Part shown: one piece after another, positions 12,891 to 16,097 of the stretch
Layout of the letters: every line of letters starts with the position of its first letter
Position numbering within the stretch: position 1 is the first letter of the stretch
From: a virus
DNA: 25,591 nucleotides
Reading direction: 5' to 3' (one strand)
IMG/VR virus record: IMGVR_UViG_3300042868_002150
Coordinates: 1 to 25,591 of that record
Position numbers and translations under genes: made by a program
The notes under the pieces: model-generated
What the model was told of the DNA's origin: nothing
Databases searched by the model: none
The model's input: only the letters and a program-made list of their open reading frames with translations

Positions 12891-12916
12891 AAGCCGCCCT
12901 GCCAGGCGGCTTTTTT
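12891..12916 (+). terminator. Hairpin with flanking T-tract between HNH and primase genes
   Basis: AAGCCGCC (12891-12898) pairs with GGCGGCTT (12905-12912) around CTGCCA, followed by TTTTTT on the plus strand. In plus direction it is a good terminator, which would stop antisense transcripts. In the operon's direction the T-run is only three bases, so it may attenuate weakly or stabilise the upstream mRNA. Confidence 0.6.
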
Positions 12917-13304
12917 ATTTGACGGCTGTTAGCCCGGCAGCATGAAGCTTCCTGTCGGCAGCATTTTCTTTTACGGTTCCATACTTCAAATTACTCAGCG
13001 CGTTATTCAGTTTGTCACCATCTAAATGCCGTATTTCACTACGGTCGGCTATTTTAGGCCGCAAACCCTCAAACGCGAGTAAAACTAGCTCATGAACGTA
13101 CGTTGTTTTTGTAACGCCCGCTTTAGATAATTTCACGCTTAAATACTTGCCCGATATGAATTGCTTAATGTCGCGGCCTTTGTAGACCATACCTTTATGG
13201 CGGCCATAAGGTACTGACCGCGTAAGCGACCGCACATTACCAAAATTGCTTACCTCATAAAACCCCGCGTAACCGGGTATCGATGTCCAAAGCTCCATAA
13301 TCAA
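12915..13304 (-). CDS. HNH endonuclease with NUMOD4 domain, putative homing endonuclease
   Basis: This 129-residue protein has a NUMOD4 DNA-binding motif at the N-terminus (ELWTSIPGYAGFYEVSNFGN, residues 4-23, then VRSLTR) and a compact HNH core: VHELVLLAFEG (H71), IRHLDGDKLNNALSNLKYGT (H93, N100, N101, N105). These are the features of free-standing homing nucleases that copy themselves into phage genomes. It lies between the polymerase and primase genes, its start overlapping the polymerase stop by four bases, and a hairpin follows it. It is shorter than many HNH relatives but keeps the key residues. Codon use and AT content are slightly different from its neighbours by eye. Confidence 0.88.
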   Translation of the reverse strand: MIMELWTSIPGYAGFYEVSNFGNVRSLTRSVPYGRHKGMVYKGRDIKQFISGKYLSVKLSKAGVTKTTYVHELVLLAFEGLRPKIADRSEIRHLDGDKLNNALSNLKYGTVKENAADRKLHAAGLTAVK

Positions 13305-15271
13305 CCCTTTCCGTATCTATCCATCACTTCAACTTCAGCGGACAAAGGCAGACCCGCAGCCCATGCGGGCGGCGTACACATCACTTGCTTTAGGGTATTG
13401 GGTGCATCAGGGTCAGACGTCTCCAGCACAATCTCATCATGCACATGCAGCACGACGTCATCGAGCTGGCGTAAAGCATTCCGTAGCAGATCGTTGGCGA
13501 CTGCTTGCGTTATATTCTCACAAGCCAGACCGCGCCACAAGCGCGCTCTGGGCCATTCGGTTGCGTCTGCGGCAGGTTTCCATGCGGCCTTCACATATGT
13601 AATCTCGTCGCCATCAAACTTAGCAAACGGATAGCACAGGATGCGCCCACTGGGCAGCGCGTACCAGAGGTGTTGCTTGTCGTACAGGTAGGTGACGCGC
13701 CCGGCGGTAAACTCCCGCCCAGGATTGCGTAGAGCGCGCGTGTAGGCGTCTTCTAGCTTGCCCCAGTAGCGCACCGCCCATGCGTTTGAGCGCCGCCACG
13801 CGTCTACAATGCGGCGAGAATCGGACTCGGCCATGACGACGCCGTAGTTGCGGCCCATCGCTGAGAACGCCCCGATCGAGCCGCCGAAGCCTAATGACAG
13901 GATCGCAACCTTGCCAATCTGGCGCTGCTCTTTGTCGACCGCATCTTCGGCCACCCGGTAGATTCCGGCGGCTTCGCGCTTGTAGATGTCGCGGCCCTCG
14001 CGGAAGACCTGCAGCACCTCTTCGGCCTGCGGGTCGGCTGACGCCCAGGCGGTGACGCGGGCCTCGACCGCTGACCAGTCGGCTGCAACGAATTGTTTGC
14101 CGGGCGCCGGGATCAGTGCGGGCCGGAGCATCGACCGGAGAACATCCGTAACGCGTTTTCCAAATCTTGGGGTGATGCTGTGGCCTCGCACCATAGCGTG
14201 CCTAACAGCGTCTGGCTCGTCGGCGCACTTGCGCGTGAAGTTGTGAACTTGCGCGCCATAACTCGAAGCTCGTCCAGTGGCAGAGCCTCCAGCGAAGACA
14301 AAAGCACCTCGTACTCGGTGATCGTCTTCGTCTGCCAAGCCTGCAAGGCGGCTGAACTTCGCAACCGACGACGCCCAGAGGTCATCTGCGCATTGAATGA
14401 CGTCCGCAACATGGGCCGGAATCTCATCGGGGTTTTCCTCCGCAAAAGTTAACAGGTTGGCGCGTACTGACTTGTCGATAGAATACTTCTGCTCGCCATC
14501 CTTGTACACCTCCATCATCTTCAGCGCCTGCGGGCCGACCCTGTCGATTACCCATTGTTTCATCTTGGGGCTTCTGACCGACAGAATCTCGCCCTCGGTT
14601 AGCTCGGCGACCAGTGACTCGATCTCTTCAAGCTCGACCGACGCGTAACGAATCGCCGCCTGTGCGAGTGGCAAGTCAAGCAATACGCCACGGTCGTTGA
14701 TGCGCTCGTTGACATGGTAGTCGGCGAGTTCCTCGTCGGATAGCGGTCGCATAGCCTGACTGACTGCGCGCATGGTTCGGACGTCCTGCTCGCAGTAGCG
14801 GATCATCTCGGCCATCAGCTCCGGCGAATCGTTAAACGATCCATCAGCGCGAGGGACGGAAAGTGCGCGGATAAGCTGGCTTCCTCGGTGGTCTTTTCGC
14901 ATGTTGCTGGAGATGGCTCGTCCAACGTCTTCAAGGCTGCCAGGTAAGCAGTTCGCACGCGCTTGTGTAGCGGTGCAGTAGAACTGGTGAAGCGCAGGCT
15001 TTGGTACGCCAAAATCTTGGCATAAGACATTCCAAAAGATCTGACGATCAAAACCGGCGTTATGAAACCGCAGCTGTTTACCAGCGCGAATGTGTTCTGA
15101 TATTGATTCAGGGAATGGTTGATCTGGCGTCCATGTCTGTACATCGTCGTCTCCAAAAGCGTAAGAGAAGCACAGGATTGATGTGCTTGCGTCCAAGCTA
15201 TAGTTATAGCCGCCGCGCGACGGTAGATCGCAGCGACTTCTTGTCTCGAAATCACCCCAAAGGATTGCCAT
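13301..15271 (-). CDS. DNA polymerase, family A, with 3'-5' exonuclease
   Basis: This 656-residue enzyme is the phage replicative polymerase. The exonuclease domain shows GDFETRS (D7, E9), the middle acidic motif in FHNAGFDR (D75) and YCEQDVRT (Y159, D163). The polymerase domain shows motif A VAADWSAVEARV (D398), motif B RQIGKVAILSLGFGG (R450, K454) and motif C LHVHDEIV (H611, D612, E613). All catalytic residues are present. There is no clear Shine-Dalgarno before ATG 15271; an A/T-rich stretch and a strongly folded segment lie upstream, which may regulate its translation. Like other phage family A enzymes, it lacks the 5'-3' exonuclease domain of host Pol I. Confidence 0.95.
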   Translation of the reverse strand: MAILWGDFETRSRCDLPSRGGYNYSLDASTSILCFSYAFGDDDVQTWTPDQPFPESISEHIRAGKQLRFHNAGFDRQIFWNVLCQDFGVPKPALHQFYCTATQARANCLPGSLEDVGRAISSNMRKDHRGSQLIRALSVPRADGSFNDSPELMAEMIRYCEQDVRTMRAVSQAMRPLSDEELADYHVNERINDRGVLLDLPLAQAAIRYASVELEEIESLVAELTEGEILSVRSPKMKQWVIDRVGPQALKMMEVYKDGEQKYSIDKSVRANLLTFAEENPDEIPAHVADVIQCADDLWASSVAKFSRLAGLADEDDHRVRGAFVFAGGSATGRASSYGAQVHNFTRKCADEPDAVRHAMVRGHSITPRFGKRVTDVLRSMLRPALIPAPGKQFVAADWSAVEARVTAWASADPQAEEVLQVFREGRDIYKREAAGIYRVAEDAVDKEQRQIGKVAILSLGFGGSIGAFSAMGRNYGVVMAESDSRRIVDAWRRSNAWAVRYWGKLEDAYTRALRNPGREFTAGRVTYLYDKQHLWYALPSGRILCYPFAKFDGDEITYVKAAWKPAADATEWPRARLWRGLACENITQAVANDLLRNALRQLDDVVLHVHDEIVLETSDPDAPNTLKQVMCTPPAWAAGLPLSAEVEVMDRYGKG

Positions 15272-15290
15272 AATTTTTATTCTGAGAGGG

Positions 15291-15452
15291 TGGCCCCGGT
15301 TACCCTGCCAGCATCAGGTCGAACCGACCAAGGAAGAGCCTGATGTTTAGGTAACCGGTGCCATTGAAAGGTGGGGTACTCGCTGCGTCTGTCTGCAGTA
15401 CCGGCTGGGTTTTCCCGACCAGTCGCACGGCAGCATCCGCTTTCCCCCGTGC
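15291..15452 (-). other. Structured non-coding segment upstream of the polymerase, candidate RNA element
   Basis: The 184-base gap between the ssDNA-binding-like gene and the polymerase is dense in nested stems. TGGC-C-CCGGTTACC (15291-15304) pairs with GGTAACCGG-T-GCCA (15350-15363), 13 bp with one mismatch. Inside it CATCAGG pairs with CCTGATG (15312-15318/15339-15345), and GGTCG with CGACC (15317-15321/15325-15329), the latter competing for shared bases. Further stems are GGTACT/AGTACC (15375-15380/15398-15403) and GCACGG/CCGTGC (15425-15430/15447-15452). Drawn on the operon strand it is a leader for the polymerase mRNA. I recognise no known riboswitch or ribozyme consensus. The strand is not proven. 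Confidence 0.6.
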
Positions 15453-15455
15453 TAC

Positions 15456-16097
15456 TTAACCGCGACGACGACGACCAGCGGGTGCTGGCTCGGCTGCAGG
15501 CGTCTCGGCTTCTGCTTCGTCAGCCTTGCCGTCCATGCCGACCCACTCGACGATCTCAAAGACCGGCGTGTAGATGCGACCGTACGACTTGTGCAGGTAG
15601 TGGTCTTTCTTCAGACGCACGACAGGCACGGGCTTGGACTGATCCTTCTCGACTTGCTCGGCAATGGCAATCGCGAGCTGTTGCACTGCGCGCTTGCCGC
15701 CCACCGATGTCACTGTGTAGCGCGCTTCCATGTCCTTGTCAGAACCGGAAATGCACTTCAACGACATGCCGACTTGCGCTTCCCAACCACGCTTGGCATT
15801 AGGCGGCGGTGCGTCCATCTCTGGCAGCGGCTCGGATACCGACACCATCTTCTCACCCAGCACCTCACCTTCACCCCAAGCGATAAAGCCGTGGATGAAC
15901 GAGAACGGGTTGATCGCCCATGTGGCGTCGTCCTCGACCTCGGTTTGGTCAGCACCGAACACCCAGTGGCCGGTCTTGTCCATCTTAATGATGACGGAAC
16001 TTGATGGCCCTGCTACGGTTTCCAGCGCGCGCAGTGCGGTTGAGAGGGAAGAAACGGCAGGCAGGTTAGCGCCTTTGAAGTTTACGATATTGGACAT
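15456..16097 (-). CDS. Conserved phage protein, possible single-stranded DNA-binding protein
   Basis: This 213-residue protein lies between the Cas4-like nuclease and the polymerase, the slot usually held by a single-stranded DNA-binding protein in such replication modules. It has ADQTEVEDDATWAINPFSF (about residues 49-67), a GWEAQVGMSLKCIS strand region and a repeat-rich, acidic then Arg-rich tail (EAEAETPAAEPAPAGRRRRG). No catalytic motif is seen. Translation starts at ATG 16097 behind AGGAG. The binding function is inferred from position and general composition only. The basic end is unlike the acidic tip of bacterial SSB. Confidence 0.7.
   Translation of the reverse strand: MSNIVNFKGANLPAVSSLSTALRALETVAGPSSSVIIKMDKTGHWVFGADQTEVEDDATWAINPFSFIHGFIAWGEGEVLGEKMVSVSEPLPEMDAPPPNAKRGWEAQVGMSLKCISGSDKDMEARYTVTSVGGKRAVQQLAIAIAEQVEKDQSKPVPVVRLKKDHYLHKSYGRIYTPVFEIVEWVGMDGKADEAEAETPAAEPAPAGRRRRG

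Follow-up and report, generated by a model that had tools for sequence, protein, structure and literature searches.

Between two genes of an apparently tightly packed viral operon lie 184 noncoding nucleotides, and the question raised by this locus is whether they act as an RNA and, if so, which of the two neighboring genes they serve. The operon belongs to IMG/VR virus record IMGVR_UViG_3300042868_002150, of which we analyzed positions 1 to 25,591 (i.e., a stretch of 25,591 nucleotides, here called the window). The gap (15272–15455) separates two ORFs on the minus strand (13301–15271 and 15456–16097); minus is the coding and transcribed strand at this position, and the features described below lie on it. 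The first-pass annotation had read the segment as an untranslated leader tied to the start of the downstream gene, with stems that could form a two-state switch.

The downstream gene encodes a DNA polymerase A of 656 aa (Pfam DNA_pol_A, 3e-20; phrog_17, 1.5e-89), and its ATG has no Shine-Dalgarno at CCACCCTCTCAGAATAAAAATTATG, as had been remarked earlier. A NUMOD4-HNH endonuclease (12915–13304, minus strand) is encoded directly 3' of the polymerase gene, and in some relatives HNH genes are found directly 3' of the RNA element itself. The upstream gene, whose stop codon is the reference point for module A below, encodes a protein of 213 aa for which sequence searches of Pfam and PDB gave no match. 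An AF2 model of this protein (pLDDT 75) returned no strong match (E ≤ 0.001) in Foldseek; its best structural match was the PhiC31 recombination directionality factor (RDF; Z 8.1), and it also matched the ssDNA-binding cores of RB69 gp32 (Z 5.5) and T4 gp32 (Z 5.4), with further SSBs lower. With this moderate structural support, the protein appears to be SSB-like (OB-fold).

All the stems that the first-pass annotation had listed within the 184 noncoding nucleotides are present. More specifically, the long stem (15291–15304/15350–15363) has 13 pairs and one mismatch, and CATCAGG/CCTGATG (15312–15318/15339–15345) shares bases with GGTCG/CGACC (15317–15321/15325–15329), as described. Folding of the single segment was only moderately more stable than that of dinucleotide shuffles (z = −2.58 on the plus strand and −1.71 on the minus strand), and the part that we call module B reached z = −2.72 against shuffles when folded alone on the minus strand. 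The decisive evidence for structure is not folding energy but covariation in relatives: a comparison of related loci, of the kind proposed in the first-pass annotation, revealed covariation far above chance. It also showed that the gap holds two structured elements rather than one, namely module B and a second, module A (~15370–15448), which the earlier reading had not singled out and which is the more conserved and widespread of the two.

Module B (15289–15363) was defined from a 24-sequence alignment and comprises P1 (15350–15363/15291–15304), P2 (15339–15345/15312–15318), the loop CCTTGGTCGGTTCG (15320–15333), and then CCC. Across these 24 distinct relatives, 98% of the cells in the nested P1/P2 are paired (100% in P2), and 10 pairs show compensatory change on both sides, a number matched by none of 500 shuffles, in a type of test that kinship among the sequences inflates for both modules. 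Shifting the pairing partners abolished the covariation signal. On the minus strand, about 40 cells are G-U and 1 is C-A, and this excess places the structure in RNA read in the gene direction. Unlike the covarying P1/P2, the competing GGUCG/CGACC stem lacks covariation, and 6 of the 24 relatives cannot form its C-G pair; the suggested two-state switch is thus not supported. No variation was seen in the loop CCUUGGUCGG across the aligned sequences, and its pattern matched 51 stretches. All distinct module B copies read from the loci lie behind module A.

Module A (15370–15448) begins 7 nt after the upstream stop codon (spacer, 15449–15455). Read from that codon, the order is GTAGCAC, GGGG-G-AAA-GC-GGATG-C..., a variable hairpin, and ...G-ACGCA-GC-GAGTA-CCCC-ACC. 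In coordinates, these parts are the helix P1 (15445–15448/15373–15376), the left core GAAA-GC-GGATG (15434–15444), the variable hairpin P3 (15389–15433), the right core ACGCA-GC-GAGTA (15377–15388), and the 3' tail ACC (15370–15372). In the fold, P1 is the outermost helix and leaves RCC unpaired on its 3' side; further in come the GAAA/GAGUA loop, two G-C pairs, another conserved loop, and finally P3. Each locus carries a single copy, and no intrinsic terminator was found in it, as there is no U-run and the helix is followed by ACC(U) and then by mixed sequence.

Both stems of module A covary over 146 distinct instances. Although the sequence of P1 is highly variable, it remains complementary: pairs 1 to 4 are formed in 144, 146, 146, and 139 of the 146 instances (shuffle means of 78, 107, 126, and 107), and pairs 2 to 5 of P3 covary above all shuffles, again with kinship inflating the comparison. 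The diversity of P1 types and of their contexts argues against relatedness as the cause of this covariation. In addition, the first four P1 pairs have more G-U than C-A cells when read on the sense strand. Between these stems lies a near-invariant core of 21 nt, AAAGCGGATGC...GCAGCGAGTA. Given that our pattern scan used fixed core letters, its near-invariance rests on a relaxed search of the loci, part of which had been fetched by protein homology alone. With two mismatches allowed per core half, this search found 147 perfect cores, 4 with one mismatch, and none worse, and on shuffled DNA it found nothing but one match at the loosest level. The few deviants fit the structural model: L136 turns a C-G closing pair of P3 into G-C, and in L041 and L089 the inner helix has grown from GC/GC to GAC/GUC. 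Such constancy of a core between two freely varying stems marks an RNA function under tight constraint. As a separate observation, L288, L334, and L341 carry a core variant with GAACG..GGAC or similar adjoining and without a regular P1, which may be either a distant branch or a chance occurrence.

P3 is the variable part, ranging from 8 to 109 nt. Its lengths are uniform modulo 3 (57/54/52), which indicates that it is not coding. We also considered a coding extension of ssb by readthrough; it was rejected, as the frame is open in the window by chance and lengths are uniform modulo 3 throughout the family. In the smallest copy (L347), which measures 47 nt, P3 is CC-GAAA-GG. At the other extreme of complexity, the copy at L076:149–240 has as its variable hairpin a degenerate tRNA body with D-, anticodon-, and T-arms; it scored 25.0 bits (E = 0.0018) against the Rfam tRNA model, under the cut-off for tRNA membership (an Rfam score over 29 bits or an ARAGORN call). 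A tRNA search of the window found none.

A gene-independent pattern scan of viral contigs located module A in at least 120 viral stretches, and among relatives found by protein homology the core strings occur at the ssb-pol junction in dozens of loci. Among 85,000 bacterial species scanned there is only a handful of copies that look genuine, among them those from Limnohabitans, Pelomonas, and one uncultured betaproteobacterium; matches in Paenibacillus, Shouchella, Poribacteria, Imhoffiella, and Treponema lack P1, lie inside long ORFs, and were attributed to chance. Among annotated phage genomes, our search located module A only in uncultured Manatee Spring phages. Scaffold matches in Streptomyces and Gordonia phages, where the core is absent or lies inside an HNH gene, were likewise dismissed as chance, and a nucleotide search with the flanked segment against 50,697 phage records gave no match. 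The description of the segment as an unrecognized structured RNA holds: a search of Rfam 15 at gathering score revealed no family in the window or in 18 related loci. The isrB sRNA (RF01386; gathering score of 35 bits) reached 19.2 bits in the window (E = 0.5), which is chance level, and with two weak matches of at most 10.9 bits among 12 related records it is not conserved. A literature search with partial coverage, including few subscription journals and preprints, found no paper on the core or its ssb association. By Rfam and this partial coverage of the literature, module A is apparently an undescribed RNA family.

To which gene does module A belong? In 105 loci fetched by the RNA pattern alone, an SSB-family gene lies directly upstream in 46, compared with 4.5% of the genes in the same DNA (p = 7e-34), a tenfold excess over expectation. 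Restricting the count to families named ssDNA-binding by PHROGs or Pfam left 21 of 105 against 2.3% (p = 4e-14); this strict count covers four database-annotated families, the window's own family being assigned via its predicted fold. The families linked to module A (PF00436 canonical SSB, Enc34/gp2.5-like, phrog_7364/18154, and phrog_6015) have no mutual sequence match, and further upstream families end in an acidic ...DDxPF tail, which is typical of SSBs; an AF2 model of a second upstream family (L259; pLDDT 54) was too weak for use. A further 25 cases have an SSB-family gene no more than 1.5 kb upstream, and in some of them a gene for a small Cys-rich peptide intervenes. Against the ssb link, about a quarter to a third of the instances are away from any recognized SSB gene. 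The distance from the stop codon to P1 is 5–8 nt in 101 of 142 instances. The genes downstream of module A are many and unrelated (~70 clusters, including polymerases, methylases, primases, and HNH nucleases). As the genes upstream are of the ssb type and those downstream are diverse, module A belongs to the 3' end of the upstream gene, and it is an ssb 3'-UTR element rather than the polymerase leader of the first-pass annotation. Compensation for an absent Shine-Dalgarno was also discarded as its purpose, since 38 of 94 usable downstream starts have one. The peptide whose gene separates SSB gene and RNA element (in L222, L267, L281, L283, L308, L311, and L316) is small, Cys-rich, and secreted-looking (e.g., MRYLFALWLAITAPLVYATCTYNTY..VTCTTCCYGNSCNTNCY).

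The content of this junction is exchanged among phages. Where two phages have upstream proteins that are at least 95% identical, their P3s are unrelated (i.e., below 60% identity, near the random level) in 76% of the pairs. P3 can differ even where both flanks are 90–100% identical; L167 and L197, for example, have identical 40-nt flanks on both sides and P3s of 50 and 16 nt. Conversely, identical P3s of 33–43 nt are found beside unrelated upstream genes, with different P1s (L279/L291, L246/L090, and L268/L218) or with the same P1 (L234/L290). P3 is thus swapped among phages and the core is kept, so that the core serves as a constant frame for exchanged hairpins. Entire elements can be replaced as well. 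The first-pass annotation had held that relatives without the segment yet with the flanking genes would speak against it, and such relatives do exist in part: at the ssb-pol junction some have plain G-C hairpins, hairpins with only the GAAA/GAGUA loop, another RNA module, or overlapping genes. This marks the element as exchangeable, not obligatory.

The other RNA module, module C (AAGCCAGCNNTCGAGGATGGTGA...CTGGCTT...AAACCCAAATCG), is a second undescribed element unrelated to module A and occurs in L125, L353, L355, L356, L371, and ~30 other loci. It is probably pseudoknotted through AAGCCAG/CUGGCUU. About half of its copies follow genes of the same SSB families, at ~7 nt from the stop codon, and behind SSB genes its closing helix is followed by RCC, as read by eye; other copies elsewhere stand without the RCC tail before a T-run. 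Since module C and plain hairpins replace module A, a closed helix at this spot seems to be the common requirement. It is possible, though somewhat doubtful, that phage replication operons use RNA cassettes as a modular system, in which a near-invariant scaffold holds an exchangeable hairpin, is linked to ssb by function and not by homology, and can be replaced at this spot by at least one unrelated architecture.

What might such an element do? We infer, tentatively, that the gap acts in cis as an intercistronic RNA region within the ssb-pol message, composed of two independent modules, and that it serves in mRNA processing or stability, perhaps as a target of RNase P. With 5–8 nt between stop codon and P1, the helix would sit where the mRNA enters a terminating ribosome, and module A may thus fold as a hairpin just outside the ribosome halted at the ssb stop codon. 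There it could set the end of the ssb message and uncouple SSB output from the next gene, by offering a site for processing, by blocking decay in the 3'-5' direction, or by both. Host RNase P would cut at the 5' foot of P1, 5–8 nt past the stop codon. This enzyme is suspected because of the acceptor-like helix with G at its 5' foot, a pyrimidine at position −1, and RCC at its 3' foot; indeed, RCC directly follows P1 in 117 of 150 module A instances, and position −1 is a pyrimidine in 80%. The GGU of RNase P RNA pairs with R73-C74-C75, and model hairpins are cut (PMC11143913). The enzyme also processes the phage C4 and M3 RNAs and the 4.5S precursor, and T4 gene 32 mRNA, itself an SSB message, was first reported as a substrate in 1990 (PMC11143913).

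With these non-tRNA substrates (the 4.5S precursor, C4, M3, and T4 gene 32; PMC11143913), module A shares the helix with its RCC tail and the occurrence in phage messages, one of them an SSB mRNA. The helix and RCC shared near the stop codon, their recognition by RNase P, and the one tRNA-like P3 are what favor a processing or stability element with RNase P as first suspect. Module A departs from those substrates in its hypervariable hairpin, in its near-invariant core with two loops, and in having U (69%) instead of A as the predominant base after RCC. RNase P does not obviously need the invariant 21-nt core, which this model leaves without an explanation.

The same core weighs on a first alternative, which we regard as rather unlikely, i.e., that a rigid fold without any RNase P involvement keeps 3'-5' exonucleases off the 3' end of the ssb mRNA or isolates this mRNA from translation farther downstream. 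Module A stands at about the shortest distance from the stop codon that a folded helix allows, simple G-C hairpins and module C are interchangeable with it, and P3 can shrink to a GAAA-capped CC-GG stem, all of which suit such a barrier; a generic decay barrier, however, needs no core, and neither the core nor the RCC tail would be accounted for. REP/BIME elements are palindromic intergenic structures near bacterial stop codons, in which the stem sequence is conserved and present in many copies. Module A is similarly structured, intergenic, and close to a stop codon, but its loops are conserved, its stem covaries, and it is single-copy per locus, whereas a general stabilizer could occur as repeats. 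If instead P3 were the functional part, the core would be a scaffold presenting an exchangeable hairpin payload (e.g., against host defense or a competing phage) as a trans-acting or decoy RNA on the probably strongly expressed ssb message, and the phages would have an RNA cassette exchange system. The unrelated P3s behind nearly identical proteins, the identical P3s beside unrelated genes, and the tRNA-like P3 agree with this idea. We nevertheless find it improbable, given that a minimal hairpin can stand in for P3, which would make the payload dispensable, that there is no known target, and that the stop-codon spacing indicates a role in cis.

Binding sites typically show near-invariant internal loops inside stems that covary, so an RNA that binds a ligand or protein (riboswitch-like or autoregulatory) and thereby controls ssb or its downstream neighbor was weighed too. 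It is less probable still: module A is 3' of its linked gene and is followed by diverse genes, the SSB proteins are unrelated, which makes a single protein-specific site unlikely, and the two-state alternative stem of module B fails. A DNA-level site placed in the operon by chance, such as a recombination or replication hairpin (attC-like, or a primosome site), seems very improbable. Integron attC sites have an imperfect stem, unpaired conserved bases, and a variable terminal structure, and they lie behind a gene. Module A has all of these features, its hypervariable tip on a conserved stem recalling the attC variable terminal structure, and P3 and P1 are exchanged between phages next to replication genes. 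It differs from attC in showing RNA-type covariation with G-U: on the sense strand, G-U outnumbers C-A in module A P1 pairs 1–4 and does so by far in module B. It also occurs only in the sense orientation at a fixed spacing behind the stop codon, and it has no conserved recombinase boxes; in a recombinase site, the sequence of P1 would be expected to be conserved, and it is not.

The linkage to SSB genes of several unrelated families suggests a way of handling ssb messages at the RNA level that is common to phages. Should RNase P indeed be the enzyme, the older observation on T4 gene 32 mRNA would extend to a widespread design principle. What appears new here is the RNA family and its scaffold-and-cassette behavior, the suspected processing enzyme being already well known. 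One part of the scaffold has a recognizable counterpart: the bulged-G (loop-E, sarcin-ricin) consensus is AGUA/GAA, and the GAAA/GAGUA internal loop of module A fits and resembles it. Loop-E is a recurrent three-dimensional motif only, and not a homologous family of module A. A loop of the GAAA/GAGUA type is all that is kept in the ssb-pol hairpins of L066, L096, L104, and L053, the stems of which are otherwise unrelated.
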